Below, one piece after another: positions 19,400 to 42,017 of a stretch of 64,000 nucleotides of DNA; the first letter of the stretch is position 1, and each line of letters starts with the position of its first letter. This stretch comes from Gemmatimonas aurantiaca T-27 (GTDB lineage: Bacteria > Gemmatimonadota > Gemmatimonadetes > Gemmatimonadales > Gemmatimonadaceae), in assembly GCF_000010305.1 (NCBI RefSeq), contig NC_012489.1, forward strand, positions 3,789,646-3,853,645. The letters are read 5' to 3'. Made by a program: the position numbers and the translations under genes. The notes beneath the pieces are model-generated. The model worked only from the letters and a program-made list of their open reading frames with translations, was not told where the DNA came from and did no database searches.

Positions 19400-20413
19400 C
19401 TACCCGAGGGCGCGCGCCAGCTCCCGCAGCAGCCGGCGCGTGTCTTCGAGACTGACACAGGCATCCGTGATGCTCTGACCAGGACGCATCGGCACACCAG
19501 GCACGAAGAGCTGACGCCCCTCCTCGAGATGACTCTCGAGCATGATGCCCAGCACATGGGTCATGTCCTCATTGCGTCCTTGTACCCGTCGGATGATGTC
19601 CTCGAGCACCACCGTCTGCGCACCGGACGGCCCGGCGTTGCCGTGCCCACAGTCGATCATGACACGCGGCACGAGCCGCTCCCGGGCCACCGCTGCGCTT
19701 GCGACATGCACCGAATGCCGATCCGCATTCGGTCGCGTTCCACCTCGCAGGATCAGGTGCGTGTCCGGGTTGCCGGGTGTCTGACGCACCGCGGCACGCC
19801 CATCATCGTCGATCGTCAACACCCGATGGGTGGCACCGGCCGAGATCATCCCGTTGATCGCGGCCGTGACATCGCCGCTGGTGCTGTTCTTGAACCCCAC
19901 CGGGCACGCCAGCCCAGACGCCATCTGGCGGTGCAGCGGGCTCTCCACCGTGCGAGCGCCGATGGCACTCCACGCCACCAGATCTTGCAGGTAGTCGGCC
20001 ACGACCGGGTCCACAAATTCGGTGGCCACTGGCAACCCCATGGCGTTGATCTCTTCGAACAACGCTCGGGCAATGCGCAGTCCGTCGTTCACCCGACCAC
20101 TGCCATCGAGCCCCGGATCATGCAACAGACCGGTCCATCCGAGTCGCGTACGCGGCTTTTCCACGTACACACGCATCACCAGTAGCAGGGAGGACGAGAC
20201 CTCCTGCTGCAGCGCGTGCAACTGCGCGGCGTACTCACGCGCCGCGTCCACATCGTGCACCGAGCAAGGCCCCACCACCACCAACCAGCGGCGATCGGCT
20301 CCGTGCAGAATCTCGCGAATATCCGCACGGGCGCGCTCCACCGTGCCCTGGGTTGCATCCGACAGCGGCACCGCATCCCGCAGTGCGTGGGGAGTCGGTA
20401 GTGCATCAACCAT
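19400..20413 (-). CDS. aroG: 3-deoxy-7-phosphoheptulonate (DAHP) synthase, type I
   Basis: The 337-residue enzyme condenses phosphoenolpyruvate and erythrose-4-phosphate, the first step of the shikimate pathway leading to chorismate. Similarity to E. coli AroG is strong throughout: GPCSVHD, RVYVEKPRTRLGW, NDGLRIAR, PVGFKNSTSGD, LRGGTRPN, ESHLEEG and GQSITDAC. The chosen ATG overlaps the entA stop by 8 bases and has GGCGGAG eight bases upstream; an ATG 24 bases further up lacks a site. As the last gene of the siderophore operon, it probably raises chorismate supply for 2,3-dihydroxybenzoate under iron limitation. Feedback sensitivity cannot be judged by eye. Confidence 0.95.
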   Translation of the reverse strand: MVDALPTPHALRDAVPLSDATQGTVERARADIREILHGADRRWLVVVGPCSVHDVDAAREYAAQLHALQQEVSSSLLLVMRVYVEKPRTRLGWTGLLHDPGLDGSGRVNDGLRIARALFEEINAMGLPVATEFVDPVVADYLQDLVAWSAIGARTVESPLHRQMASGLACPVGFKNSTSGDVTAAINGMISAGATHRVLTIDDDGRAAVRQTPGNPDTHLILRGGTRPNADRHSVHVASAAVARERLVPRVMIDCGHGNAGPSGAQTVVLEDIIRRVQGRNEDMTHVLGIMLESHLEEGRQLFVPGVPMRPGQSITDACVSLEDTRRLLRELARALG

Positions 20414-21170
20414 GCAATGATGCTCCGCCATCGACAAAAAGCTCGTTCATCGTGATATGTCCGGCACGATCAGACAGCAGGAACAACACTGCGTCAGCGA
20501 CATCACGCGGCTCGGCGAGTTTCGCGAGTGGGATGCCGATCTTGAATTGGGCGGGTGACCCCGCGATCACACTGTCCATACCATGTTCGGCCAACATCGC
20601 CTCCAACATGGGGGTTCTCGTCGAACCCGGCGACACCACATTGCATCGCACGCCAAAGGGCGCGAGCTCGAGGCCGAGACTGCGGGTGAAAAGGGAAGCG
20701 GCCGCCTTGGACGCTCCATAGGCGGCCATGCCCTGGCGCGGGACACCGCCGGCGTTCGAGGCCACCGTGACTATACTGCCCTGGCGCTCGGTCATCATGT
20801 GCCGCGCCAAGGCGCGCGACAGGTTGAACACGCCGGTGGTGTTGACGGCAAACAGTCGATCCCATTGGGTGTCGTCGGTATCCACCACGGATGCCGTATG
20901 CAACACACCAGCCACGTTCACGCCGAACCTCACCGGTCCCCATTCAGCGATGGTCTGTGCGACCAGCGCTTCCACCGCAGCCGACTGCGACACATCCACC
21001 GCGAAGGCACGATAGCGCGAGTCATCCGCGTCGGTCCGCGTTGGGATCTGCTGATCGAACGCCACCACGCGCGCTCCGGCGTGCAGGAGCGCCGACACCA
21101 CCTCGGACCCGATGCCACCCGCTGCACCACTCACGATCGCGACGCCACCGACCAGACCGGGATGGGTCAT
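20406..21170 (-). CDS. entA: 2,3-dihydro-2,3-dihydroxybenzoate dehydrogenase
   Basis: The 254-residue short-chain dehydrogenase oxidises 2,3-dihydro-2,3-dihydroxybenzoate to 2,3-dihydroxybenzoate with NAD+. The Rossmann glycine motif is SGAAGGIG, the active-site YGASK follows VTVASNAGG (NAG and catalytic serine region), and the C-terminus is LFVDGGASLHG. Length is close to E. coli EntA (248). The start overlaps the synthetase stop by four bases (ATGA). The assignment to EntA rests on the operon partners as well as on the family; as an isolated SDR it would be less specific. Confidence 0.93.
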   Translation of the reverse strand: MTHPGLVGGVAIVSGAAGGIGSEVVSALLHAGARVVAFDQQIPTRTDADDSRYRAFAVDVSQSAAVEALVAQTIAEWGPVRFGVNVAGVLHTASVVDTDDTQWDRLFAVNTTGVFNLSRALARHMMTERQGSIVTVASNAGGVPRQGMAAYGASKAAASLFTRSLGLELAPFGVRCNVVSPGSTRTPMLEAMLAEHGMDSVIAGSPAQFKIGIPLAKLAEPRDVADAVLFLLSDRAGHITMNELFVDGGASLHG

Positions 21171-24100
21171 TGGACCACCACCGTGAGGGGTTGCAGCCCG
21201 GCGTGCATAAGTGCCGCAATGCGGGGCGCATGTTCAGGGCTTGTCATGTGTGCATGCAACGAAGGGATATCATGAGCGTCGATCGTCTGGGCGTACGGCT
21301 CCCACTCCGTCGCCAGATACGAACCGTCTCCGTGATCGAGCGCAGCGCGCAGGTGCAGGAGCGTACCGTCGAAACGGCGCTGCACATGCCCGCGCACCAG
21401 GCGGTTGTTCGACTCCACCACACGCAGAACGCCGGCCAGGGTGTCGTCGGACAGTGTGCCCAGCGGATGGCCGGTGTGTCGGAGCAGACAGATCACGCTT
21501 TCGAGATTCCGATCAGCCTGCGCGAACGACGCCGGATCGATCCCGGCGATGAGCAGCAGCGCATCGAGAGCGGCGCCGTCAGCCGGGGGCGGCGCAAGGC
21601 GCCAGTGGTCGGCGGGATACGCATCGAGCAGTGCCACGACACCCACGGCAGCACCGGCTTCCTGCAATTGCACAGCCATCTCCTGAGCGATGATCCCCCC
21701 CACCGACCACCCGGCGAGGTGGTACGGACCGGCCGGCTGGATCTCGCGCACGCGCTGCACATAGGTCGATGCCATGTCGCGCAGTGTGGATGGCTGCGCA
21801 CCTCCGAGCAGGTCCGCCTGCAGACCATACACCGCACGCGGTTGCATCATGACCCGACCCAGGGCGGCGTAACACCACGAGATGCCACCCGCCGGATGAA
21901 TGCAGAAGAGCGGCGCGTGGTGCGGCGCCACGCCATCCCGCACGCCATCGGCGAGCAACACCACCGTCCCCAAGCCTTCGGCCTGCGCACGCTCGTGGGC
22001 GCGCAATGGCAGCGCCTCATCGAGATAACGGGCAAAACGCGACACCGTGGGATTGGCGAAGAGCGCGCCGATACCAGCCGAAAGCTGTCGCTCTGCACGC
22101 AGCCGCACCATCACGCGGGCGGCCAGCAGCGAGTGCCCACCCAGAAGAAAGAAGTCGTCGTCGGCATGCAGCGTGGTGACATCGAGCTGCAGCAGCTCGG
22201 CAAACAACGCCGCCACCTGGTGTTCCGTCGCGGTGGACAACGAACGTCCAGCCCCCACGATGTGTTCAGGCATCGGCAATGCCTTGCGATCGAGCTTGCC
22301 ACTCGATGTCAGTGGCACTGTGTCCACTGCCATGACATACGACGGCACCATGGCTTCGGGCAGTCGCGTCTGCAGCAACGCACGCAGTCCGTCCGCATCG
22401 GGCGAGTTCGCACCGATGGCCGGCATCACGTACGCCACCAATCGTGTCTCACCATCGGGCATGACGCGTGGTACCACATGGGCCTGCGCGTATCCGCCGA
22501 TGCTCATGATCGCCGATTCGATCTCGCCCGGTTCGATGCGTACGCCGCGGATCTTCACCTGGTGGTCGGATCGGCCGAGATAGGTCAGGGCTCCATCGGC
22601 ACGCCACATGGCCTTGTCGCCCGTCAGGTACATCCGTGCGCCCGACACAAACGGATCTGCAATGAAGCGTTCGGCCGTGAACTCCGGGCGATTGAGATAG
22701 CCGCGCGCGAGCTGCACACCGGCGATGTAGAGATCGCCCGCCACACCCGGCGGCACCGGCCGCAGGCGCGCATCGAGCACATACATCGCGGTGTTCCACA
22801 CAGGGAAACCGATGGGCACCGGATCACTGCGATCGTCTCGACTGGCGGGCCAGTAGGTGACATCCACCGCCGCTTCCGTGGGACCGTACAGATTGTGCAG
22901 TTCGGCCGCATACAACCCATGGAAACGATCCCGTTGCTCCGCCGTGAGGGCCTCCCCACTGCAGAACACCTGACGCAGCGACGATACCGGTCGCGGCGCA
23001 CCTTCCTGTTCAGCCAGAAAGGCCGACAGCATCGACGGCACGAAGTGCGTGACAGTGATGCCTTCGTCATCGATCACACGCGCCAGCCACGCCGGGTCAC
23101 GGTGCGACGCCGGAGGCGCCATGACCAAGGTTGCGCCTGCCATAAAGGGCAGGAACAGCTCCCAGACCGACACATCGAAGGTCACCGGTGTCTTCTGCAG
23201 AATGCGATCCGTCGCACCGATGCCGTAGTGCGTACGCATCCATTCGAGGCGATTCACGATGGCCGCGTGTTCCACCACCACACCTTTCGGAACGCCGGTG
23301 GATCCCGACGTGAAGATCACGTAGGCGGCGTCGGAGCACCCCGGCCGCTCCGGTCGTGCATCGGCACGCGCCTGTGCAGAGGGCACGGCTATCACACCGT
23401 CCTGCACCTGCAACTGTGGCAGCGCATCAGGAAGTGTCGACGCGAAGGCCGCACTGGCCACCAGCAACCGCGGCTTGGCCTCGCGCATCATCACATCCAC
23501 GCGTTCGATCGGCTGGTCCGATTCGATCGGCATGTAGGCAGCGCCGACCCGCAGTACCGCCAACATCACCACCGACAAGTCGAGTGAGCGCGGAATCGCC
23601 AATGCCACGACATCGCCCCGCTGCACACCGGCGGACGCCAGGGACACGGCAGCCGCAGTGACCAGCGTGTCGAGCTGCGCATAGGTGACGGTGCGACCAT
23701 CGGCCCGCAATGCTGGCGCATCCGGCGCGCGCCGCATGGCATCGTCGATGAGGTCGATCAGCGTGACGGACGGCACGACATGCGCCGTATCGTTCACCGT
23801 GTGCACCCACTGCTGATGCTCGGTGTCGGTCAGTGTGGGGACCGAAGCGAGTGTGTGGGCCTGCACGGCGCGCTGCAGGAACGTGGAGAGCCGCGTCAGA
23901 TGCGCGTCCACCTCGGCCACCGAATACCGATCCGGGTTGGCCTCGAATTCGAGGCGTGCGACCGTACCCGGCACATCACGACTCGGCGCTCCACCACGCA
24001 CGGCGATGGCCAGATCATCGACCGGTCCGGTGCCGAGCACCAGGTGGTTGCTCTGCACACCACGCAGCGTCACCGCTTCTTCAAATGGCAACACATTGAC

Positions 24101-25165
24101 GATCGGACCGTGCACGTGTCGATCACCACCAATCAGGTGCAAGTCGCGGCGCAACTGTTCACTGCGATACCGGCCATGTTTGCGGGCCATGCGCAGTCGA
24201 TCCGATACGTCGGCCACCAGTGCGCGCATCTCCTGGGATTCATCGATCACCAGGCGCATGGGCAGCACGTTCATCGTCATCGTTGGCACGCGCGCGGCGG
24301 GCGTGCCGAGGCGACCCATATAGGGAACGCCGATGACGATTTCTTCACTGCCGGTGTGACGCGTGAGATACGCGGCGACCAACGTCACCAGCACATCGGG
24401 CCATGGCACTTCCGCTTCCTCGGCCACGGCCTGCACGGCCTCGATGACCGTGGCCGGCAGCGCGGCAGAGGCCATGTGTGCGGCCCGAGCGGCTGGGGCG
24501 CGCGACGCGGACAGCGACGTGATCTCCGGCAGTCGCACGAACTGCTCGTGCCAATACCGGCGATCGCGTTCCCGCAGAGCGCCGGCACGGTATCGGGCAT
24601 CGTCGGCCTGGACATCGACAATCCGCCCCATGGTCATGCCGGTGGGTTCGTCGTCGCCTCTGTCATACCACTCGCTGATGCGCCGCATCAACAGCAGTGT
24701 GCCGTACCCGTCGATCAGGATGTGGTGCACCCCTTGGTACCACAGCCAATGCGCGGGCCCGAGCACATACAGACGCTGCACCACCAGCGCGTCCCGATCG
24801 AGCGCGCGGGCGCGGTCCATGTCCGCGCGGATGGCCATCATCGCCACCGCGTGTGGGTCGGCCTGCGACGCAAGGTCCACCACGTCCAGCACCGGGACCT
24901 GCGCGTGCATCACCTGACGCGGACCATCGAGCGTATCGATGATCTGCACCTGCAACCCAGGCGCTTCCGCCAATGCGCGCTCGATGGCACGGGCAAAGCG
25001 CGGCACGTCGAGCGCGCCGCGCAGCTCAACGGCATGTGCGGTGTTGTAGCCTGGATGCGTAGGATCGGCCTGCGAAGCGTACCAGATGCCTTCCTGGGCT
25101 TCGGTCAGCGTCACCGCTCCAGCCACATCGCCGGCCATGTCGCCGTCGGCGATATCAGCCGTCAT
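21167..25165 (-). CDS. entF: EntF-like non-ribosomal peptide synthetase, C-A(Ser)-T-TE
   Basis: A single-module synthetase of about 1332 residues (E. coli EntF has 1293). Domain order: condensation (VHHILIDGYG with HHxxxDG intact), adenylation (IFTSGSTGVPKG, YGPTEAAVDV, GDKAMW), peptidyl carrier (LGGHSLL) and thioesterase (GWSVGG, nucleophile about Ser1154, and a C-terminal His near IPSLHAHMTS). Pocket residues read from FDVSVWE, THFVPSML, VFCSGEAL and LYGPTEAAVDV give D-V-W-H-F-S-L-V-D plus Lys, the serine code of EntF. It should join dihydroxybenzoyl groups to serine and release or cyclise the product. The ATG used overlaps the carrier-protein gene by 11 bases; a GTG 12 bases earlier is possible. 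Confidence 0.95.
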   Translation of the reverse strand: MTADIADGDMAGDVAGAVTLTEAQEGIWYASQADPTHPGYNTAHAVELRGALDVPRFARAIERALAEAPGLQVQIIDTLDGPRQVMHAQVPVLDVVDLASQADPHAVAMMAIRADMDRARALDRDALVVQRLYVLGPAHWLWYQGVHHILIDGYGTLLLMRRISEWYDRGDDEPTGMTMGRIVDVQADDARYRAGALRERDRRYWHEQFVRLPEITSLSASRAPAARAAHMASAALPATVIEAVQAVAEEAEVPWPDVLVTLVAAYLTRHTGSEEIVIGVPYMGRLGTPAARVPTMTMNVLPMRLVIDESQEMRALVADVSDRLRMARKHGRYRSEQLRRDLHLIGGDRHVHGPIVNVLPFEEAVTLRGVQSNHLVLGTGPVDDLAIAVRGGAPSRDVPGTVARLEFEANPDRYSVAEVDAHLTRLSTFLQRAVQAHTLASVPTLTDTEHQQWVHTVNDTAHVVPSVTLIDLIDDAMRRAPDAPALRADGRTVTYAQLDTLVTAAAVSLASAGVQRGDVVALAIPRSLDLSVVMLAVLRVGAAYMPIESDQPIERVDVMMREAKPRLLVASAAFASTLPDALPQLQVQDGVIAVPSAQARADARPERPGCSDAAYVIFTSGSTGVPKGVVVEHAAIVNRLEWMRTHYGIGATDRILQKTPVTFDVSVWELFLPFMAGATLVMAPPASHRDPAWLARVIDDEGITVTHFVPSMLSAFLAEQEGAPRPVSSLRQVFCSGEALTAEQRDRFHGLYAAELHNLYGPTEAAVDVTYWPASRDDRSDPVPIGFPVWNTAMYVLDARLRPVPPGVAGDLYIAGVQLARGYLNRPEFTAERFIADPFVSGARMYLTGDKAMWRADGALTYLGRSDHQVKIRGVRIEPGEIESAIMSIGGYAQAHVVPRVMPDGETRLVAYVMPAIGANSPDADGLRALLQTRLPEAMVPSYVMAVDTVPLTSSGKLDRKALPMPEHIVGAGRSLSTATEHQVAALFAELLQLDVTTLHADDDFFLLGGHSLLAARVMVRLRAERQLSAGIGALFANPTVSRFARYLDEALPLRAHERAQAEGLGTVVLLADGVRDGVAPHHAPLFCIHPAGGISWCYAALGRVMMQPRAVYGLQADLLGGAQPSTLRDMASTYVQRVREIQPAGPYHLAGWSVGGIIAQEMAVQLQEAGAAVGVVALLDAYPADHWRLAPPPADGAALDALLLIAGIDPASFAQADRNLESVICLLRHTGHPLGTLSDDTLAGVLRVVESNNRLVRGHVQRRFDGTLLHLRAALDHGDGSYLATEWEPYAQTIDAHDIPSLHAHMTSPEHAPRIAALMHAGLQPLTVVVQ

Positions 25166-25403
25166 GCTCCGCACCACCCGCAGACGCGAGCAGTCCCCAC
25201 CAGTACGAAAGCTGCGGCCGCTCCGCGAGCTGCGCGAAGTCGACCTGAAGACCCGCGCGTTGCCACTGTAGCGTCAGCGCCATCAGGCGAATGGAGTCGA
25301 GCCCCCAGTCGACGAGATTGTCCTCGTCGCCGATCTGCGAGACTTCTTCTCGGAGGATGTCCGCCACGGCCTGGCGCATCCCATTGAACGTGATGGCCGT
25401 CAT
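25155..25403 (-). CDS. Stand-alone aryl carrier protein
   Basis: The 82-residue acyl-carrier protein has the phosphopantetheine serine at Ser37 in LVDWGLDSIRLMAL. It corresponds to the C-terminal domain of EntB/DhbB, which carries 2,3-dihydroxybenzoate as a thioester after activation by EntE. Here it is a separate gene whose ATG overlaps the isochorismatase stop by four bases, so domain stoichiometry is kept by translational coupling. The usual fused gene thus appears split (or never fused) in this lineage. Confidence 0.9.
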   Translation of the reverse strand: MTAITFNGMRQAVADILREEVSQIGDEDNLVDWGLDSIRLMALTLQWQRAGLQVDFAQLAERPQLSYWWGLLASAGGAEHDG

Positions 25404-26074
25404 GACGTGGTCACCTCCGTTCCCGAGAGCGCTGCAACAATCTGCGTGGTGTCCTGCACCACCGCGCAGCGTGACGCCGCGTAGGTGATGGCCTGATCGT
25501 GGTGCGCACGGGAAAAATCGCCAATGGCATCGGAAACCAGGAACGGCTCGATATCCCGCATGAAGGCGTCGGCTGCCGACAGCAGGCATCCGATGTGCCC
25601 ATACACGCCACAAACGATCAACTGTGACCGACCACGCGCGCGCAGCATTTCTTCGAGTGGCGTGCGCTGAAAGGCACTGTACCGCCACTTGGTGAGCACA
25701 TGATGCCCGGCGCCGGGCCGCAACGCCGGGATGATGGCCGCCTGCTCGGCCGTCGCCATGCCCGTTCCCCAGAACTTTGCCTGCAGGCCGCGGTCGCGCT
25801 GATCCTGAGCCGCATGTTGCGCCGTGTAGAACACGGGCACTCCCTGCGCATCACAGGCATCACGCAACCGCGCGATATTGGCGACCACCGCCTCGACAGG
25901 CGCCTCACCCGACGCAAAGGCATCCACGAAGTACTGCTGCATATCGTGGATGAGCAACGCGACGCGATCCGTCTGGACACGCCACGGCGCCACCACCGGC
26001 GGCAACTCGTCGGCGGTAGGCATCACATACGAGCCGATGCGAGGCAGCTTGGCACTGCTTGGAGCATTACTCAT
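25400..26074 (-). CDS. entB: Isochorismatase (EntB N-terminal domain only)
   Basis: The 224-residue enzyme hydrolyses the vinyl ether of isochorismate, giving 2,3-dihydro-2,3-dihydroxybenzoate and pyruvate. The signature ALLIHDMQQYFVDAF (catalytic Asp), LTKWRYSAFQRTPLEE (Lys) and VCGVYGHIGCLLSAADAF (Cys region) are all present. E. coli EntB (285 residues) has an extra aryl carrier domain, encoded here by the next, overlapping gene. The start overlaps the entE stop by four bases. Confidence 0.95.
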   Translation of the reverse strand: MSNAPSSAKLPRIGSYVMPTADELPPVVAPWRVQTDRVALLIHDMQQYFVDAFASGEAPVEAVVANIARLRDACDAQGVPVFYTAQHAAQDQRDRGLQAKFWGTGMATAEQAAIIPALRPGAGHHVLTKWRYSAFQRTPLEEMLRARGRSQLIVCGVYGHIGCLLSAADAFMRDIEPFLVSDAIGDFSRAHHDQAITYAASRCAVVQDTTQIVAALSGTEVTTS

Positions 26075-27777
26075 GACACGCGAGAATCAGGAGTGGAAAC
26101 AGGTGCTGCGGCGGCCGTGGCCTGCTCTGCCGCGAGTGCGCGCAGCGCACCACGCAGATCCTTGCGACTGGTCTTGCCGACACCGGTGGACGGGAACGCG
26201 TCCACGAACACGATTTGATCAGGCACCTTGTACGCGGCCAGCCCCCGATTGCGGATCCACGACTTGAGCACCGGCGGGGGCACGCGTTCGGCGCGTGGGA
26301 TCACGAACGCGCAGGATCGCTCGCCGAGATAGTCGTCGGGCACCGATACCACCACGGCATCGAGGACGGCCGGGTGCGCCACGAGGTGATCTTCCACTTC
26401 CTCGGGAGACACCTTCTCGCCTCCCCGATTGATCTGATCGGTGGCTCGGCCATGCACCACGAGATACCCGGCAGCCGTACGGCTCACGAGATCACCGGTG
26501 CGATAGAAGCCGTCATCGGTGAAGGAGCGCGCATTGGCCGCGGCATTCTGGTAGTAACCGCGGATGGTATAGGGGCCACGGGTCTGCAGGTGACCGATGG
26601 CACCCGGTGCGACCGGTACATCATCATCGTCCACGATGCGCAGTTCATCGTCCGCACTGATGGGGCGCCCCTGTGTGTTGCAGATGGTGTCGACATCGTC
26701 GTCGAGACGAGTGTAGTTCACCAATCCCTCTGCCATGCCGAACACCTGCTGCAACGTGGCGCCGAGCGTCGGCGTGACCCGTGCCGCAATCGCCGGCGTC
26801 AGCTTCGCCCCTCCCACCTGCAACACTTCGAGGCTCGACAGGTCTGCCGATGTGATCGCCTTGGCCTCCAGCCACATCAATGCGATGGGTGGCACGGCAG
26901 CAGCGATGGTCACCCGTTCCTGTTCGATCAATGCAAAGGCCACGTCGGGTGCCGGCGATGGACTGAGCACAATGCAGGCGCCAGCGTCCAATGCGCCGAG
27001 AAACCCGGGTGAACTCATCGGAAAATTGTGCGCCACCGGCAGCACGACCAGATACACCGACGCCGGTGAGAGACCGCAGATCGTCGCGCTCTCCCGTACG
27101 CTGTACAGATAGTCGTCGTGGGTGCGAGGGATCAATTTCGACAGTCCTGTGCTTCCACCCGACAATTGCAGGAACGCCACCGACGAGGACGGCGGATCGA
27201 TCAGCAACGACAGATCGTCGCCACGGAACGCGTCCAGCGACTCGAGATCCGGATCGTCCTGCTCCACGACGCCGGCAACGACCACGTGGCGCACGGTCGC
27301 ATGCGAAGCCCGCAGCGATCGCCCCAGCGTGCGATAGTCGAACTTCTCATGTACCGCCGGAATGACATACGCCACCGCACCGGACACCGTGGCGATGTTG
27401 TCGATCTCGGTCTGACGATGGGCCGGCAGGGCAAATACGGGCACGATACCCGCCCGAATGAGCCCAAGCATCACTGCCAGGAACTCGGGGACATTGGGCA
27501 ACTGCACCACCACCCGTTCCCCCGGTTGCACACCACGCGCTAAAAAGCCCGCCGCCACGCGGTCCGCTTCCTGATCGAGACGCGCGTAGCTCCATCGGGT
27601 GCTGCCGCCCACAACGGCGGTGCGCTCAGCATGCTGCGCGGCGCGCGCGCGCAACCAGGCGCCGATGGACTCGCCCTGCCAGTAGCCCGCGTCGCGATAC
27701 CGGGTCGCATCGGCGACCGGCCATTCCTGCGTGGGCACTCCAGGCACCGATGTCGGCATAACGGGCCTCTCAGGCAT
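26071..27777 (-). CDS. entE: 2,3-dihydroxybenzoate-AMP ligase
   Basis: The 568-residue adenylating enzyme activates 2,3-dihydroxybenzoate with ATP and loads it on the aryl carrier protein. It tracks E. coli EntE closely: LQLSGGSTGLSKLIPRTH, FGMAEGLVNYTRLDD, RGPYTIRGYY, GRATDQINRGGEKVSPEE and VGKTSRKDLR. In VAHNFPMSSPG an Asn occupies the place of the Asp that binds the amino group in amino-acid domains, as is typical of aryl-acid domains. The ATG chosen overlaps entC by 8 bases and has GGGAG about 12 bases upstream; the frame is open further upstream inside entC. Confidence 0.95.
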   Translation of the reverse strand: MPERPVMPTSVPGVPTQEWPVADATRYRDAGYWQGESIGAWLRARAAQHAERTAVVGGSTRWSYARLDQEADRVAAGFLARGVQPGERVVVQLPNVPEFLAVMLGLIRAGIVPVFALPAHRQTEIDNIATVSGAVAYVIPAVHEKFDYRTLGRSLRASHATVRHVVVAGVVEQDDPDLESLDAFRGDDLSLLIDPPSSSVAFLQLSGGSTGLSKLIPRTHDDYLYSVRESATICGLSPASVYLVVLPVAHNFPMSSPGFLGALDAGACIVLSPSPAPDVAFALIEQERVTIAAAVPPIALMWLEAKAITSADLSSLEVLQVGGAKLTPAIAARVTPTLGATLQQVFGMAEGLVNYTRLDDDVDTICNTQGRPISADDELRIVDDDDVPVAPGAIGHLQTRGPYTIRGYYQNAAANARSFTDDGFYRTGDLVSRTAAGYLVVHGRATDQINRGGEKVSPEEVEDHLVAHPAVLDAVVVSVPDDYLGERSCAFVIPRAERVPPPVLKSWIRNRGLAAYKVPDQIVFVDAFPSTGVGKTSRKDLRGALRALAAEQATAAAAPVSTPDSRVS

Positions 27778-29005
27778 GTTGGGGTTCTCCCGCCGGAGCG
27801 GCCACAGGACGATGGGCGCGGGCAAGAACCTCCTGGGCACTGAGCGCACGTAGCATCGTTTCGAACTTGGCCGATGTCTCCGCGCCTTCGCCAGCCGGAT
27901 CGGAACCGATGACGATACCGGCACCGGCATAGAGTCGCGCTCGCGTGCCCGCAATCTCCGCGCAACGGATCGTCACCATCCAACGTCCGTCTCCGCGGGC
28001 ATCACACCACCCCACCGCGCCGGTGAAGTAGTCGCGGTCGAATCCCTCGAGCTCCGTGATCAGCGACTGAGCCCGTGGCTGCGGCACACCACACACGGCA
28101 GGCGTGGGATGCACCACATCGAGCAGCTCCAGCGACGAAACGGCATCATCGCGCAACTGCCCCGTGATGCGCGTGCCCAGATGCCACATGGTGGCCGTGG
28201 AAACGAGCGCAGGCGAACGCGCAAAATCGAGTGAGGAGCAATACGGTGACAGTACATCGGCGATGGCTTCCACCACGGCCGCGTGCTCACGCTGGTCCTT
28301 GTCCGATCGCAGCAACGCTTCGGCCGCAGCCCGATCGTCTGCGGCAACCAGTCGACGCCGCGTGGATCCGGCCAATGGATGTGACGATACCGTGCGCCCC
28401 GACTTCGCCACCAACAGCTCCGGTGTCGCGCCCACCAACGAGCGGGCTGCGCCATCTGGCGTCGCGGGCAACGGCGTCGCAAAGGTGGTCACACTCGGAT
28501 CGAGTCGAAGCCGCGCCAGCAGACGCCGGATATCGATCGGTGCCGTGGAATTGAGCTGCAGGCTGCGCGACAACACCACCTTGCGCAGCGGATCAGCAGC
28601 GGCGGCCTCTGCGTCGTCCACCATGTGCGCGGTGGCCCGGGCAACGGCCGCTTCATACTGCGCACGCGTGGGCTGTGGCACGACATGCCAGACACCGGGC
28701 ACAAACGCTCCGTGCTGCGCGTCATCGGACGACTGAGGCGCGCTGCCACCATGGGCTGCCCATGCCGCTTCCCACGTGGCACTGCGCGTGACCCGTTCGG
28801 GGCGCAGCAACTCCAGCGTCCGCGCGCGATCGAACGGAATCGCGCCCACCAGAACGCCGTGTGGATCTTCCGCCTGTGTTCCCGCAAAGCACGCCGCCAC
28901 GGCCGCCGGCAAACCGGCGCCGCGGGCGAAGCGCACCCGCTCGACGACACCCGATGCCATGAAGGTCTCGGGTCCCGACGACAGCAGGAACGGCAGTGCC
29001 GTCAC
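27770..29005 (-). CDS. entC: Isochorismate synthase
   Basis: The 411-residue enzyme isomerises chorismate to isochorismate, the entry into 2,3-dihydroxybenzoate synthesis. C-terminal chorismate-binding motifs match EntC: HPTPAVCGVPQ, ELEGFDRDYFTGAVGWCD, MVTIRCAEI, LYAGAGIVIGSDP and ETSAKFETML. The start is taken as GTG (VTALPFLLSSGPETF), which overlaps the upstream stop by GTGA, the same four-base overlap seen at most junctions of this operon. Menaquinone-type MenF enzymes share the domain, but the context favours the siderophore role. Confidence 0.94.
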   Translation of the reverse strand: MTALPFLLSSGPETFMASGVVERVRFARGAGLPAAVAACFAGTQAEDPHGVLVGAIPFDRARTLELLRPERVTRSATWEAAWAAHGGSAPQSSDDAQHGAFVPGVWHVVPQPTRAQYEAAVARATAHMVDDAEAAAADPLRKVVLSRSLQLNSTAPIDIRRLLARLRLDPSVTTFATPLPATPDGAARSLVGATPELLVAKSGRTVSSHPLAGSTRRRLVAADDRAAAEALLRSDKDQREHAAVVEAIADVLSPYCSSLDFARSPALVSTATMWHLGTRITGQLRDDAVSSLELLDVVHPTPAVCGVPQPRAQSLITELEGFDRDYFTGAVGWCDARGDGRWMVTIRCAEIAGTRARLYAGAGIVIGSDPAGEGAETSAKFETMLRALSAQEVLARAHRPVAAPAGEPQHA

Positions 29006-30171
29006 CGGAGGCTCACCCACTGCGGGCCTTCGATCGGGACAGCGAGGTACTTCGTGTTGATTTCGGTCAGCGTCTTCGCCGGATCGATGTCCTTGAACAG
29101 CACGGGATCGATCCACCGCGCCATGGACTCCACGGCGAGAATATCGAGCGGCGAGTTGAGGAGCTGATGGGCAATGCCATACGTCCGTCCACTCTTCACG
29201 GCGGCCAACGACGAGATCCCCTGACGCGCCGTCATCTTCTGCAACGCGGTACGGGCCTGCTCGGGCGTGAAGCCCGGGCCCAACACCAGGCCACCGGCCT
29301 TCTCGAGGTGCGGTCCACCCGTCTCGATGTACACGGGCGCGTTCTGCGACAGCACGTATTCGATGTTCAGCTTGCCCGTGGTACCGGGCAGCACATCGGC
29401 CGCGATGTTGTGGCCACCCACGAAGGTGATGTAGTCACCGATGTTGCCCTTGCCCGGGGCATGACAGCACTCCTCGGAGATGCCGGCGTGCACTTCCACG
29501 AACACCTTCGGGCGCGTGCGTGCACCAGCCTTCCGTAGACGCTCCGAGATGACACGCATGTGCTGCTTGCGGAAATCCACGAACGCCTGCGCGGCCGCAC
29601 GACGTCCTACGAGCTGACCCAGCATCAGCAGGCTGGGGTCGGTGTTCTCGAGCGGGTGCACAAAAAAGTCGATGAACACCACTTCGATACCGGCCCGCTG
29701 GAGTTGCTCGACCTGCTCCGTGGAAGGGCCCTGCCCCATCGAGAACACAGCCACCTCGGGACGCACGCGCAGGACCTGTTCCTGCGAATAGGTCGCCGCC
29801 GAACTGGCAATCGCGGTCAGTGAATCGAGGCGCGGAAACTTCGCCCGGAACTGTTCGTGGGTGCGCACCCCGATACGATTGATATCCTTGGGCCACGCCA
29901 CGAGTGTGCGCACCGGATCGGGGTCGATGAGCGCCATGGCCATCAGGAAACGGCCATCATCGATCAACACACGCGACGCCGGCTTGGCCAGCGAGATGCG
30001 GCGTCCGGAGATATCGGTGAACTGCACCGGTCCCTGCGCCACCGCCGCGGTGGCACGCGCGGTACCACGCGGCGCGGCCTGCGCCTGCACGGTGTTCACA
30101 CCAGCGGAGATACCCTGCCCGATGGTCGCCAGGAGCAGCGGCAAGAACGAACGGATCACGGAGTGCCTCAC
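29002..30171 (-). CDS. Ferric-siderophore ABC transporter substrate-binding protein
   Basis: The 389-residue protein has a signal peptide ending near VQAQA and the two-lobed helical-backbone binding-protein pattern of the FepB/FhuD class. Visible segments: VQFTDISGRRISLAKPASRVLI at the N-terminus (a typical opening for this family), VRPEVAVFSMG, IDFFVHPLENTDPSLLMLGQLVGR and a C-terminal lobe. It would deliver the ferric catecholate from the periplasm to the permease encoded in the same operon. An uncommon pair of cysteines (EECCHAPGKGN) sits mid-protein. A 37-bp gap separates it from the exporter gene upstream, the only non-overlapping junction in the operon. Confidence 0.92.
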   Translation of the reverse strand: MRHSVIRSFLPLLLATIGQGISAGVNTVQAQAAPRGTARATAAVAQGPVQFTDISGRRISLAKPASRVLIDDGRFLMAMALIDPDPVRTLVAWPKDINRIGVRTHEQFRAKFPRLDSLTAIASSAATYSQEQVLRVRPEVAVFSMGQGPSTEQVEQLQRAGIEVVFIDFFVHPLENTDPSLLMLGQLVGRRAAAQAFVDFRKQHMRVISERLRKAGARTRPKVFVEVHAGISEECCHAPGKGNIGDYITFVGGHNIAADVLPGTTGKLNIEYVLSQNAPVYIETGGPHLEKAGGLVLGPGFTPEQARTALQKMTARQGISSLAAVKSGRTYGIAHQLLNSPLDILAVESMARWIDPVLFKDIDPAKTLTEINTKYLAVPIEGPQWVSLR

Positions 30172-30208
30172 AGAAACGATGGGAAGGAAGCGAACAAAAC
30201 GTGGCCGG

Positions 30209-31477
30209 TCACGAGGGTTGTCCCTCGCGGCGCAGGGCGGGAAACGCGAGCACGATGACCACCGTGCCGATCAGCGCGAGACATCCACTGACGGTCACCA
30301 CCCGATGCGGCGGCAGCCATTGAGCGGCGGCGCCAGCGAGTGCCATGCCCAGCGACGGCAACACCACCGCCTGGATCAGCCACAGGCTGCCCACACGCCC
30401 TTGCAAGCCATCGGGCGTGTGTGACTGCAACAACGCGCGGCGAAGAATCTCCGAGAGCGCGCGGCCGGCGCCGGCCACCGTCAGGGCGATCACGGCGGCC
30501 AGTGCGGTGGATGCCACACCGAGTCCGATCGTGCCGACGGCCCACAACACCGTCGTCAACACCAGCATCGCACCGGCATCCCGCGTGCGACCGGTCCATC
30601 CGCTGAGCAGCGACGAGAGAAAGGCACCTGCGGCTGGCGCTGAGTAGAGCCAACCGGCCACGATGGCACCATCCATCAGCCGACTGCTCCACGGCAGCGA
30701 CGCCCCGGCAAACCGCGACGACGCCAGCTCGGGAAACAGCGAGCCCGGCGACGCAAACAACGCCACCGGAATCTCCAGCAACAACAGGGCACCCACCACA
30801 TGATGGGTGCGTGTGAAGTGCCACGATTCCCGCGCCGCAGCGATCGGGCCCAATGGCACACCGGGGCCGGCCGGCAATGGCTGCATGCGCGACAGCAGCA
30901 GCGGCGTGAGAATGGCCCCCACCGCGACGATCACATAACAGGCCGTGAGTCCCCACGCACCGATCGTGATGCCGGCGAGCGAGGGCCCCAGCATCGCACC
31001 GGCCTGACTGGACACCGTGATCAATGCACCGGCCGCGGCCAGTTGCGCGCGCTGCACCAGCGAGGGCATCGCCGCCATCAGCGCCGGCGCACTGATGCCG
31101 TTGATCGCTCCGGCAATGGTCGACGCGAGATAGATGATCCACAACTGCGGTTGTGGCAGCAGCGTGTTGATCAGAAACAGCGCCGCCACCAGCACGTACA
31201 CGCTGCGCGAACTCACGATGAGCCGACGACGATCGAACCGATCGGCCATCACGCCGCCGACCATCAGCCCCATCGTCATCGGCACGGCGAGGCACAGATT
31301 CACCAACCCCACGTGCCACGACGAACCGGTGATCTCGAACACCTGCCACCCAACCGCCACACTGATCACCCCGATCGACACGATGGAGATCGTGCGTGCG
31401 GCAAACAGCAGCCGGAAATCCCGGCTCGTGCGCAGTGGGGTCACATCGAGCAGCAGCCCCGATGCCGGCGCCGTCAT
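30209..31477 (-). CDS. entS: EntS-like MFS siderophore exporter
   Basis: The 422-residue protein has about 12 membrane segments. Its N-terminal part closely resembles E. coli EntS: LRTSRDFRLLFAARTISIVS, LMVGGVMADRFDRRRLIV, and later QSHTPDGLQGRVGSLW. EntS exports enterobactin across the inner membrane. The start overlaps the esterase stop by four bases. Its place in the siderophore operon supports this role over general drug export. Confidence 0.93.
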   Translation of the reverse strand: MTAPASGLLLDVTPLRTSRDFRLLFAARTISIVSIGVISVAVGWQVFEITGSSWHVGLVNLCLAVPMTMGLMVGGVMADRFDRRRLIVSSRSVYVLVAALFLINTLLPQPQLWIIYLASTIAGAINGISAPALMAAMPSLVQRAQLAAAGALITVSSQAGAMLGPSLAGITIGAWGLTACYVIVAVGAILTPLLLSRMQPLPAGPGVPLGPIAAARESWHFTRTHHVVGALLLLEIPVALFASPGSLFPELASSRFAGASLPWSSRLMDGAIVAGWLYSAPAAGAFLSSLLSGWTGRTRDAGAMLVLTTVLWAVGTIGLGVASTALAAVIALTVAGAGRALSEILRRALLQSHTPDGLQGRVGSLWLIQAVVLPSLGMALAGAAAQWLPPHRVVTVSGCLALIGTVVIVLAFPALRREGQPS

Positions 31478-32415
31478 CGGACCGTCCCCACCAGGCGCAA
31501 TGCCTCGCTCATGCTGGGCAACACCACTGAGGCATGATCCTCACCGGCGAACACACGGCATCGCGCATCGAGCGCCGGCGCGACCTCGTTCAGGCGATCG
31601 GTGAACTCGCGTGCCTGGTCGACCATGCGACGCGCGCGGCGGCGCTCCAGAATGTCGTCGGCATTGTTCTGCCCATGCTGCCAGGGCGCCAGCGCCTGCT
31701 CGTATTCACCCACCGTGATCAGCACCTGCGGATGCAACACCGGACGCGATGTCGACAGCGCCGCAACGGCCTGCCACAAAGTGTCTCCACCTCGCCAGAT
31801 GGACGGGCTGATGGCCACGTACGCCTGATAGGGCGGCGCCCCTTCGGGTGACGTTCCACGGCCCAAGGCTTCCAGCAGCGTGTCGAGCACAAACAGACCG
31901 CCCAGCGAGTGACCGATCAGTGTGGAGCGTGCGGCATTCACCGGAAAGGCCGAGGCGATGGCCGGCTGTACCACCGATGCCAGGAACGTCCGAAAACGCG
32001 ACGCACCCAGTGCCGGCGTGAAGTCCTCCGCACGCAACATCTGTCGGTGCCGACGCCGATCGTCGGCACTCACGGCGGTGTGTTCGGCCCCGTCGTCGGC
32101 ATACGACACGCCCACCACGATCGCCGGCATCACCCCCGTGGCATCGGCTCGGTGGGCACGCGTACGCATCGACTCCACCGTGGTCGCGAACGTCGCATCG
32201 CCATCGAGCTGATAGATCACGGGGTAACCGCTCGGCGGAGCCGGTTGCACGGGCCAGGCCACTCGCAACCGATAGCGCACACCATGGGCGCTCTCGAGCT
32301 CCCAGGTTTCTGCGTCGGCCATCACGACCGGACCCACGACCGCGCCCATGACCGCGCTCACACGAGGTGAACCGGCCCCGGACATCGTCGGGTCGAGCGC
32401 CGCACGATCACTCAC
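31474..32415 (-). CDS. Catecholate siderophore esterase (Fes/IroE/BesA-like)
   Basis: The 313-residue alpha/beta hydrolase of the esterase D family has the nucleophile motif LIGHSLGGLF, the oxyanion-side segment YPVIYQLDGDATF and a C-terminal His in GEDHASVV. Siderophore esterases of this group cut the serine trilactone to free iron or recycle the ligand. No signal peptide is evident, so a cytoplasmic Fes-like role after uptake is more likely than a periplasmic IroE-like role. It overlaps its neighbours on both sides by four bases. Confidence 0.92.
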   Translation of the reverse strand: MSDRAALDPTMSGAGSPRVSAVMGAVVGPVVMADAETWELESAHGVRYRLRVAWPVQPAPPSGYPVIYQLDGDATFATTVESMRTRAHRADATGVMPAIVVGVSYADDGAEHTAVSADDRRRHRQMLRAEDFTPALGASRFRTFLASVVQPAIASAFPVNAARSTLIGHSLGGLFVLDTLLEALGRGTSPEGAPPYQAYVAISPSIWRGGDTLWQAVAALSTSRPVLHPQVLITVGEYEQALAPWQHGQNNADDILERRRARRMVDQAREFTDRLNEVAPALDARCRVFAGEDHASVVLPSMSEALRLVGTVR

Positions 32416-33242
32416 CGCGCATCACCCTCGCCAACACGATCCCGCGTGCCGTCGACAATGACCTGCGGATACCCGAACGAACACGGTTCCACGCGCGCGT
32501 CCACACCGTAGATGCGCGACAACAACGTGGACGTGAGCGCCGCCGTCGGTGCGCCCATGGCCTGCACACGACCGCCATCGAGCACGATGAGCTGATCGGC
32601 CCAGCGAGCCGCCAGTGTCAGATCGTGCAGCACCGAAATCACCAACCGCCCTTCATGCGCCAGTGCCCGGGCGAGCGACATCACGGTCACCTGGTGCCGC
32701 AGATCCAGCGCACTCGTGGGTTCGTCCAGCAGCAGCATCGCCGGCTCACGCACAATGGCCTGTGCCAATCCCGCCAGTTGCCGCTCACCCCCCGAAAGGT
32801 GCTGCAACGGCTGCAAGGCCAGGTGCGCGATCCCGATGCGCTCCAGTACGGCAATGCCCCGCTGCTGCGCATCTTCCATGGTCTCCACTGGCGGCGACAT
32901 CGGCGACGCCTTGAGCGCGCCCAGCAGACCATCGAGCACGGAGAGCGTCACGTCCTGCGGCAGCGATTGTGGCATGAAGGCCACGCGCTGGGCACGCTGC
33001 ATGGCCGACACCCGCAACAGATCGAACCCGTCGAAGCGCACCGAACCGCGCCCTTCCACCAAACCGGCGAGCACGCGCAGCAACGTGGACTTGCCCGCAC
33101 CATTGGGCCCCACCAGCGCGATGTGCTGGCCGGCATGCAGCAACGGCAGCGTGAGGTCGTGCAACACGGGACGATGGCGATAGCCCGCCGTGAGCCCGCG
33201 GATCTCCAGTGGACCAGCCGAACGATCGCGTGGTGCGCTCAT
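32412..33242 (-). CDS. fepC: Ferric-siderophore ABC transporter ATP-binding protein
   Basis: The 276-residue ATPase has Walker A GPNGAGKS, signature LSGGERQLAGLAQAI, Walker B MLLLDEPTSALD and the switch His in ISVLHDLTLAARWADQ. It belongs to the FepC/FecE group that powers iron-siderophore import. Its start overlaps the permease stop by four bases. Confidence 0.95.
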   Translation of the reverse strand: MSAPRDRSAGPLEIRGLTAGYRHRPVLHDLTLPLLHAGQHIALVGPNGAGKSTLLRVLAGLVEGRGSVRFDGFDLLRVSAMQRAQRVAFMPQSLPQDVTLSVLDGLLGALKASPMSPPVETMEDAQQRGIAVLERIGIAHLALQPLQHLSGGERQLAGLAQAIVREPAMLLLDEPTSALDLRHQVTVMSLARALAHEGRLVISVLHDLTLAARWADQLIVLDGGRVQAMGAPTAALTSTLLSRIYGVDARVEPCSFGYPQVIVDGTRDRVGEGDAR

Positions 33243-34327
33243 CCGCGTGTGCCTCCTCGCGTGCCGAAGATCAGCACCACGTAAAAAGGCACACCGATCA
33301 GCGCCGTCACCAAGCCGATCGGCAGGATCGCACCGGGCACGATTATCTTGCTCACCACCGACGCCAACGACACCACCAACGCCCCACTCAACGCACTGGC
33401 CGGCAGGAAGAACCGATGGTCTTCACTCACCAGCATGCGGGCGATATGAGGACCCGCGAGTCCGACAAACGGAATCGTGCCCACAAACGCGACGGCGGTG
33501 GCCGTGAGCAAACTCACCCGCAACAGCGACGCGCGCCGCAGTTGCGCGACGTTCACGCCAAAGCTGTGCGCCCGTTCTTCACCCAACCGCAGCGCGTTGA
33601 GCTGCCACGACGCACGAAACGTGAAAGGCAACACACAGGCCACCACGATGGCGACGAGCTGCACGCGGGGCCACGACGCACGCCCCAGGCTACCCATCGT
33701 CCAGAAGACGAGCTGTTGCAACGCCTGCTCGCCGGCGATGAACTGCAGAATGGCCACCAGCGCATTGAACGTGAAAAACAGGGCGGTGCCGAGCAGTACC
33801 AGCAATTCGGTGGACGACCCCTTTCGACGAACGGCCGCCTGCAGCAACAGCACCGAGCCGAATGCAAACACGAAGGCGTTGGACGAAATCACCCAATGAT
33901 CCGGCACGCCGGGGATGCGCACTCCCAACACGATCGCCAGCGCCGCCCCCAGGATGGCCGCCGAAGACAGGCCCAGCGTAAATGGACTGGCCAGCGGATT
34001 GCGCAGCGTCGTCTGCAACTCGGCGCCGGCCAACGAAAGCCCCATGCCCACCAACAAGGCCATGACGGCCCCGGGGAGACGGACTTCCTTGATGATCATC
34101 AGCGATGTCTCATCCATCGGGCCGTCGCCGAACAAGCTTCCCAGCACTTCGGCCGCCCCCAGATCCGAAGGGCCCGTCAGCACATCGGCAATCAGGGCCA
34201 CCACAATGGCCACCGTGAGCAGCACCAGCAGCGCAAGCCGCTGGCGTATCTGCCGACGGTACCCCGCCAACACGGTGGCGGCCTGCGGCGACGCGGCCCC
34301 TGAAGATCCGGCGGGCAAACTCGTCAT
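33239..34327 (-). CDS. FecCD-family ferric-siderophore permease
   Basis: The 362-residue membrane protein has the multi-span FecCD pattern, with LRLPGAVMALLVG-type and GLAGPHIARMLVSEDHRF segments typical of FepD/FepG/BtuC. Only one permease gene is in the operon, so it probably forms a homodimer, unlike the FepD-FepG pair of E. coli. The ATG in front of TSLPAGSSG was chosen; the frame stays open upstream but runs through the divergent transferase gene. This is the first gene of the 12-gene operon. Confidence 0.94.
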   Translation of the reverse strand: MTSLPAGSSGAASPQAATVLAGYRRQIRQRLALLVLLTVAIVVALIADVLTGPSDLGAAEVLGSLFGDGPMDETSLMIIKEVRLPGAVMALLVGMGLSLAGAELQTTLRNPLASPFTLGLSSAAILGAALAIVLGVRIPGVPDHWVISSNAFVFAFGSVLLLQAAVRRKGSSTELLVLLGTALFFTFNALVAILQFIAGEQALQQLVFWTMGSLGRASWPRVQLVAIVVACVLPFTFRASWQLNALRLGEERAHSFGVNVAQLRRASLLRVSLLTATAVAFVGTIPFVGLAGPHIARMLVSEDHRFFLPASALSGALVVSLASVVSKIIVPGAILPIGLVTALIGVPFYVVLIFGTRGGTRG

Positions 34328-34356
34328 GAGCGCACGACGCGTATATCGTGCAGTCG
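34328..34356. promoter_or_regulatory. 29-bp divergent region with a 6-8-6 dyad
   Basis: The space between the start codons of the permease (minus) and transferase (plus) genes is 29 bases. It holds a perfect inverted repeat, GCACGA at 34332-34337 and TCGTGC at 34346-34351, around CGCGTATA. The central AT block reads TATATC on the plus strand and TATACG on the minus strand, at distances that would allow very short or leaderless transcripts in both directions. This is a candidate operator and promoter core for the siderophore genes. It does not look like a classical Fur box. Confidence 0.5.
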
Positions 34357-35049
34357 ATGCACACGCTGGCGACACTTCCCCGTACGCTGTCCCCCGGACA
34401 CGCGCATCTGTACATCGTGGTAATCGCCGACTGGCTGCCCGTCGCTCTGGATGTGCTGCAGGCGACGATCTCCGCCGAAGAACAGACGCGCATGCGCCGC
34501 TTCCGCCAGCACGCCGATCAGGAGCGTTTCCTGGTTGCGCACGGGACACTGCGCCTGCTGTTGGGACGGCACCTTGATCGGGAGCCGGTGCGGCTGGCTT
34601 TCAGAACGGGCGCCCGCGGCAAACCCTGGATCGCCACCGATACCATCGGTGATGCCATCACGGAGCCACCGCTGCACTTCAACCTCGCGCATGCCGGCGG
34701 CGTCGTGGTGATTGGCATCGCCGAACGACCGCTGGGGGTCGACGTGGAGATGGTGCCGGCGACCACCACGGCACCCGATCCTGGTCCGGCCTTCGATCTC
34801 ACACAACAATGGGTGCGTCACGAGGCACTCCAGAAGGCCACCGGGCTCGGCCTCGGAGCAGAAATCCTGGAACCCCAGACCTTGGACGCCACGGAGGCCA
34901 GCCCACCGCTTCGCGTGGTCGACATTTCACTGGCCAGCAACCTCGATCCGGCTCGCCCGGAACAGACGTATGCCGCGTCCGTGGCGATGGACGCTTCTCT
35001 GACAACCGTGTGCACATTCCGGCTGGTCGCGCTCTCACACCATCCATAG
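34357..35049 (+). CDS. 4'-phosphopantetheinyl transferase (Sfp/EntD-like)
   Basis: The 230-residue enzyme would load phosphopantetheine onto the aryl and peptidyl carrier proteins of the siderophore synthetase. Motifs: FNLAHAGG, GVDVE (Asp129, Glu131 for magnesium) and WVRHEALQK, which corresponds to the usual WxxKEAxxK. The first Lys of that motif is His155 while Glu156 and Lys160 are kept. The stretch between GVDVE and this motif is about 20 residues shorter than in Sfp. It may still be active. It diverges from the operon across 29 bp; an in-frame GTG nine bases earlier is an alternative start. Confidence 0.9.
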   Translation: MHTLATLPRTLSPGHAHLYIVVIADWLPVALDVLQATISAEEQTRMRRFRQHADQERFLVAHGTLRLLLGRHLDREPVRLAFRTGARGKPWIATDTIGDAITEPPLHFNLAHAGGVVVIGIAERPLGVDVEMVPATTTAPDPGPAFDLTQQWVRHEALQKATGLGLGAEILEPQTLDATEASPPLRVVDISLASNLDPARPEQTYAASVAMDASLTTVCTFRLVALSHHP

Positions 35050-41042: not shown

Positions 41043-42017
41043 CTAAAGCTGCGCGCGAAAGGCGCGACGGTAGGCGTGGGGGCTGGTATGCAACTGCGTA
41101 CGGAAATGTGCACGCATGGAGATCACGGATCCAAATCCACACTGCTCGGCGATTCGTGAAAGCGGCAACGCCGTGGACTCCAGCAATGTACGCGCACGCT
41201 GCAAGCGCTCCATCAGCAACCACTGTAGCGGTGATGTCCCGACCTCGGCGCGAAAGCGGCGGGTGAAGGTTCGCAGTGGCAATGCGGCATGCCGCGCCAT
41301 GGCGTCCACGGTGGACACTTCCCCCAATCGCGTGCGCGCCCACTGCCGTGTCGCATCGAGCGAGCCGGTGTCGTCGGTCACCATGGCACGATCCACGAAC
41401 TGCGCCTGTGAGCCATCACGGTGCGGTGGCACCACCAGCCGTCTCGCCACGGTAGCCGCCACGGCCGCGCCGAAGTCTTTGCGCACGACATGCAGACAGA
41501 GATCGATGCCGCAGGCGATGCCGGCCGATGTCAGCACCTGGCCCTCGTCCACGTACAACACGTCAGGATCAACGCGCACCTGCGGATAGCGCGAGGCCAG
41601 CAATGGGGCGTCCATCCAGTGTGTGGTGGCGCGTCGACCATCCAGCAGCCCTGCTTCGGCCAGCATGAACGCCCCGGAGCAGATCGACACCAGGCGCGCG
41701 CCTCGTGCCGCGGCTCGCTGCAGCGCCACGCTCACCGCACGCGGAATGGGCAGATCAAGATCGTGCACACCCGGCAACACAATGGTGTGCGCCTGCCGCA
41801 GCGCCCCCAATCCGCGCGTCACCAGCACATCGAATCCATTGGCCGTGCGCACCGGGCCGGGCTTCGGGGCGCAGAGCGTGGCGCGGTATCGCTGTACGCC
41901 GAGATCGATGCCGGGATAGCCAAAGACCTGCATGGGCACGCCAAGATCGAAGGGCACGACCGATGGCAGGATCAGAATGGCGACAGAAATTGGCGTTTCG
42001 ATCGGTGTTTCCGGCAT
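41043..42017 (-). CDS. GlxA-type AraC family transcriptional regulator with DJ-1/PfpI domain
   Basis: The 324-residue protein has an N-terminal DJ-1/PfpI-like domain (ILILPSVVPFDLGVPMQVFG ... LVSICSGAFMLAEAGLLDGR, with the nucleophile-elbow Cys in SICSGA). A C-terminal AraC double helix-turn-helix follows (MARHAALPLRTFTRRFRAEV and IAEQCGFGSVISMRAHFR). The ligand is unknown. The beta-lactamase gene lies six bases downstream; the divergent rhodanese gene lies about 100 bp upstream. Either could be a target. Confidence 0.93.
   Translation of the reverse strand: MPETPIETPISVAILILPSVVPFDLGVPMQVFGYPGIDLGVQRYRATLCAPKPGPVRTANGFDVLVTRGLGALRQAHTIVLPGVHDLDLPIPRAVSVALQRAAARGARLVSICSGAFMLAEAGLLDGRRATTHWMDAPLLASRYPQVRVDPDVLYVDEGQVLTSAGIACGIDLCLHVVRKDFGAAVAATVARRLVVPPHRDGSQAQFVDRAMVTDDTGSLDATRQWARTRLGEVSTVDAMARHAALPLRTFTRRFRAEVGTSPLQWLLMERLQRARTLLESTALPLSRIAEQCGFGSVISMRAHFRTQLHTSPHAYRRAFRAQL

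Follow-up and report, generated by a model that had tools for sequence, protein, structure and literature searches.

At one place in the genome of Gemmatimonas aurantiaca T-27, 29 bp (34328-34356) are all that separates the first gene of a siderophore operon, an iron-siderophore permease on the minus strand, from a phosphopantetheinyl transferase gene on the plus strand, and these 29 bp hold a perfect inverted repeat. The question is whether a regulator bound to this repeat serves both sides, or whether the gap is a promoter of a simpler kind. All coordinates are those of the window, i.e. the whole stretch of 64,000 nucleotides that was analysed, unless stated otherwise. Working from sequence, we favour the reading that the gap carries a leaderless-type promoter for the transferase, that the repeat is there by chance and that the operon is read in the opposite direction, and we give this reading a probability of roughly 0.6.

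The locus and its genes

The gap lies between ATG 34327 (minus strand) and ATG 34357 (plus strand), and both its coordinates and its sequence had been given correctly in an earlier, sequence-only reading of this DNA. Among 42 divergent gaps that were called in 424 kb of the genome, no other is as small. The two divergent transcription units also have the identities proposed for them: the minus-strand genes form an operon for both synthesis and transport of a catecholate siderophore, uptake genes included, and the plus-strand gene encodes a 4'-phosphopantetheinyl transferase (Table 1).

Table 1. Features of the gap and its neighbouring genes
Feature	Position	Strand	Remark
DAHP synthase	19400..20437	-	
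Short-chain dehydrogenase (EntA-like)	20406..21170	-	
NRPS, condensation-adenylation-carrier-thioesterase (C-A-PCP-TE; EntF-like)	21167..25177	-	
82-aa ORF, putative carrier protein	25155-25403	-	by position
Isochorismatase (EntB-like)	25400..26074	-	
Dihydroxybenzoate-AMP ligase (EntE-like)	26071..27954	-	
Isochorismate synthase (EntC-like)	27770..29116	-	
Periplasmic siderophore-binding protein	29002..30171	-	
EntS-type enterobactin exporter (MFS)	30209..31477	-	over NCBIfam cut-off
Esterase (predicted Fes/IroE-like role)	31474..32415	-	
ABC transporter ATPase	32412..33242	-	
FecCD-type iron-siderophore permease	33239..34327	-	first operon gene, ATG 34327
Weak -35-like hexamer TCGTCA	34321..34326	+	17-bp spacer to -10; 4/6 to TTGACA
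Perfect 6-8-6 inverted repeat GCACGA-CGCGTATA-TCGTGC = GCACGACGCGTATATCGTGC	34332..34351	.	probably by chance
Predicted -10 TATCGT (TANNNT), leaderless type	34344..34349	+	-13 from ATG 34357; genome-wide TANNNT peak at -12
4'-phosphopantetheinyl transferase	34357..35049	+	Pfam AASDHPPT_N; NCBIfam HetI-like below cut-off

For the permease, ATG 34327 is preferred on coding score, and this start is supported by an acidobacterial relative (L056, 64% identity) that aligns to the permease from residue 3. The transferase frame is stopped upstream by an in-frame TGA at 34327-34329, which rules out a longer start. The sole alternative upstream start is GTG 34348, within the right arm of the repeat; it is possible, and ATG 34357 is favoured over it. 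Neither ATG is preceded by a Shine-Dalgarno motif.

The siderophore operon (19400-34327) looks horizontally acquired, or lost elsewhere, because in the genus members examined the permease has no close orthologue (about 40% identity at best). Its nearest relatives come from Alphaproteobacteria and Acidobacteria and, within the phylum, from two distant members.

Probable leaderless promoters in the genome

Promoter statistics were computed on 38 stretches of 20 kb (L170-L207) together with the window, with genes called by a simple home-made gene caller. A TANNNT box at -12 was found before 20 of 379 operon-leading genes, where 1.7 were expected per position, followed by 7 boxes at -13, 4 at -11 and 3 at -14. 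Altogether 34 of the 379 genes carry the box at -14 to -11 (Poisson P for these counts about 1e-13 or less), and 32 of these 34 start with ATG, compared to 283 of the 379 overall. Among operon-internal genes the box stands at -12 in only 2 of 209. The genome thus has a statistically clear class of leaderless promoters with TANNNT at -12, of which the genes at 8384-9298 and 41043-42017, both on the minus strand, are examples within the window. Judged by the observed and expected counts, about one in five boxes at -14 to -11 would be a chance match and about four in five would be real, with somewhat fewer real ones at -13 alone.

G028, another member of the genus, also shows the class, with 8 of 85 genes at -12 and 0.47 expected; the -12 peak was not seen in G103, whose genome comes from a different family of the same taxonomic class. 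From -15 to -20 the box is not enriched in the genome, so near-leaderless starts are not visible as a class.

Shine-Dalgarno motifs are infrequent in the genome (15%, with 6.7% in the control), which agrees with a survey that gives low Shine-Dalgarno use for Gemmatimonadetes (22 in its table; PMC10783764). Leaderless TANNNT promoters, in which the -10 box lies next to the open reading frame, have been described in Deinococcus-Thermus and Actinobacteria (PMC3160421, PMC12340547). The class found here resembles them in having TANNNT about 12 bp before the start and a strong preference for ATG, in a high-GC genome, with a weak -35 and no Shine-Dalgarno motif. It differs from Deinococcus-Thermus, where about 30-46% is reported, in that about 9% of operon-leading genes are covered here by the strict motif. 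In the literature searched we found no report of this class in Gemmatimonas.

A proposed transferase promoter

TATCGT is the only plus-strand TANNNT between 34251 and 34380. Its first T is 13 bp before ATG 34357, within the 11-14 bp that define a leaderless box, and thus adjoins the -12 peak without coinciding with it; the transferase is itself one of the seven genes with the box at -13. In this position, and in overlapping a repeat, it is unlike the leaderless promoters described elsewhere. The -35-like hexamer TCGTCA coincides with the first codons of the permease gene on the other strand and is weak, its type of score being reached in about 15% of shuffles. A strict sigma-70 promoter scan found nothing.

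We propose that TATCGT works as the -10 box of the transferase, that transcription would begin at or beside the A of ATG 34357 and that the mRNA would have essentially no leader. The inverted repeat would be a by-product of GC-rich sequence, its right arm (TCGTGC) simply happening to extend over the latter half of the -10 box. The operon led by the permease would be transcribed the opposite way, from a promoter outside this proposal.

The permease side

On the minus strand no TANNNT occurs from 34328 to about 34650, i.e. in about 320 bp upstream of the permease. Because the permease is without a comparable box, the region does not explain expression of the operon, and leaderless mRNA from the gap can hold at most for one side. 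The sequence-only reading had expected leaderless or near-leaderless mRNAs from both genes, which is probably right for the transferase, given TATCGT at -13 and the genomic TANNNT class, and is not supported for the permease operon. It had also pointed to TATA-like hexamers on both strands; both are present, and only the plus-strand TATCGT fits the -10 rule of this genome.

Two arrangements would still place the gap in the path of permease expression. One is a classic divergent pair, with the operon also starting in the gap, behind a leader of about 5-8 bases, from a -10 such as GATATA (34347-34342) or TATACG (34345-34340). In favour of such a pair, the hexamer TCGCCA (34372-34367) and GATATA, separated by a spacer of 19 bp, reach 7/12; however, this score, like the best two-hexamer promoter match for the permease on the minus strand, is at shuffle level. 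Neither -10 candidate has the final T, and the missing enrichment at -15 to -20 also speaks against it. We consider this arrangement quite unlikely.

The other arrangement takes the repeat as an RNA hairpin in the 5' leader of a permease mRNA started from a promoter inside the transferase gene, where it would affect the start of translation. Immediately upstream of the ATG the minus strand can form an 8-pair stem (for the 29-mer, -11 kcal/mol and z -1.9), and the lack of a TANNNT promoter for the permease in the gap is in line with a start further upstream. In an 81-nt context, however, z is +0.7, i.e. structure no greater than in shuffles, an Rfam search gave no match, a search of the transferase gene for a minus-strand promoter brought up no good one, and the hairpin is not conserved. 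We consider this arrangement very unlikely, and a leaderless transferase promoter is still the reading that we prefer.

The inverted repeat

The perfect 6-8-6 dyad had been noted earlier with correct sequence and coordinates, and such a dyad is not rare. If every 29-bp stretch of the window is taken, 5.4% contain a perfect inverted repeat (arms of at least 6, loop of 3-17), compared to 3.3-4.2% in shuffled sequence; for a loop of exactly 8 the values are 0.58% and 0.27-0.44%, respectively. When the 29 bases before the start were searched in the sampled stretches, a repeat with arms of at least 6 was found for 17 of 379 operon-leading genes, two of the 17 being the permease/transferase gap read from both sides, and for 8 of 209 operon-internal genes, so the repeat is no mark of a promoter. 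Six of the 379 have a loop of 8, and two of these six are again this gap. The dyad is most likely a chance by-product of GC-rich sequence, and possibly an operator.

As an operator, GCACGA-N8-TCGTGC would be bound by a dimeric regulator that covers the transferase -10 and represses or co-controls both transcription units. The repeat is perfect, the centres of its arms are 14 bp apart, about one helical turn, it overlaps a plausible -10, and no shorter divergent gap was seen; with the right arm over the -10, a dimer bound at the dyad would block the promoter. The gene content would make joint control sensible, and two Fur proteins (genes at genome positions 1098604 and 3337837) and one of the DtxR family (3187712) are encoded in the genome. 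Against this stand the chance-level frequency of the repeat, in the window as well as in upstream 29-mers, and the results on recurrence, conservation and known boxes given below. We regard such an operator as unlikely.

Recurrence and conservation of the dyad

One other exact copy of the dyad exists in the genome, which is a single contig of 4,636,964 bp, and this copy falls within a gene for a Ser/Thr kinase, in the part that encodes the conserved HRDLKP motif. With one mismatch allowed, and each palindromic site taken once, the dyad matches at 40 genomic places and a reversed control pattern at 25. Thirteen of the one-mismatch sites were inspected; twelve are in strongly coding sequence and the other one (L232) is ambiguous. 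As far as checked, the dyad is unique in non-coding DNA.

A copy before other iron genes had been suggested as a check. Within 200 bp of 30 other iron-related gene starts (TonB-dependent receptors, two fur homologues and the DtxR-family gene), no site matches with fewer than 3 mismatches in 12, which is chance level, so none was found.

An orthologue of the permease (about 59% identity) is present in only 2 of 395 genomes of the phylum, in both cases in a syntenic siderophore operon and in neither case beside the transferase. Absence of the dyad from related operons had been named beforehand as a sign against a functional role, and no copy is found upstream of these two orthologous operons, where different short repeats are seen. 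Among 80 relatives outside the phylum there is none in which the transferase and permease genes diverge from each other. Nor was the dyad found upstream of about 80 related permease genes; in 81 relatives in all, its matches track the shuffled distribution closely, and a small excess at 2 mismatches comes from one site in a neighbouring gene and from three Rhizobium sequences that are related to each other. Because no relative keeps the permease-transferase divergent pair, this is a limited test of conservation and its negative outcome is the weaker for it.

In the acidobacterial MAG mentioned above (L056), a 10-7-10 perfect repeat, GATTGCCGAC-TTGACAG-GTCGGCAATC, stands before the orthologous permease. 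This repeat, about 104-78 bp upstream of where the permease is estimated to start, covers a consensus -35, TTGACA, followed by TAACGT. It is a much stronger operator candidate than the dyad of the window.

Known regulator boxes

Consensus scans for Fur, DtxR, MntR and Irr over 34201-34560 gave background scores only. For the 19-bp Fur box, GATAATGATAATCATTATC, the best match in this region is 10/19, which is at chance level for a region of such length and bears out the earlier remark that the gap lacks a Fur-box look. For the DtxR/MntR box (TTAGGTTAGGCTAACCTAA or TTTTAG-N6-CTAAAA) the best match in the region is 8/19. The dyad is unlike Fur and DtxR/MntR boxes alike.

A DtxR/MntR-type perfect repeat, TTTTAGGCTACGCTAAAA (TTTTAG-GCTACG-CTAAAA), does occur upstream of an Nramp/mntH-like gene (genome positions 3190106-3190123; L183 10106-10123). 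It is near the only DtxR-family gene and unique in the genome at 0-1 mismatches, and it is a probable MntR-type operator. The dyad is like DtxR/MntR operators in being an inverted repeat near a metal-related gene in a genome that encodes one DtxR-family protein, but the mntH repeat is AT-rich and has no sequence in common with the dyad.

Two further repeats were seen near TonB-dependent receptor genes. In one case ATTTAGTCTTGCCTAATT, which is DtxR-like with 3 mismatches to the mntH repeat, lies over the leaderless -10 box of the gene (genome about 1462681-1462698; L176 7674-7700). In another, a perfect palindrome, TTGTAG-TCA-CTACAA, which we take to resemble BlaI/CopY-type operators, is found about 15-30 bp before the start (L144, start at 354).

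In E. coli, Fur controls divergent siderophore promoters, e.g. fepA-fes/entD and fepD-entS/fepB. The present locus is similar in that divergent genes of catecholate siderophore synthesis, transport and carrier activation surround one short control region. It is unlike them in two respects, i.e. nothing like a Fur box is found in 34201-34560, and a gap of 29 bp does not leave room for two complete promoters next to each other.

Significance

The idea that a shared operator in the gap controls synthesis, transport and carrier activation is not supported, as the dyad is at chance level and absent both before iron genes and in the orthologous operons. Binding by a lineage-specific regulator, of neither the Fur-box nor the DtxR-box type, that covers the leaderless -10 is decidedly improbable; if true, one 29-bp gap would set siderophore carrier activation, synthesis and uptake together. 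The dyad itself is probably of no importance, and it shows how easily short perfect repeats arise in intergenic DNA of 64% GC. The leaderless TANNNT class bears on the annotation of start codons and promoters in Gemmatimonas.
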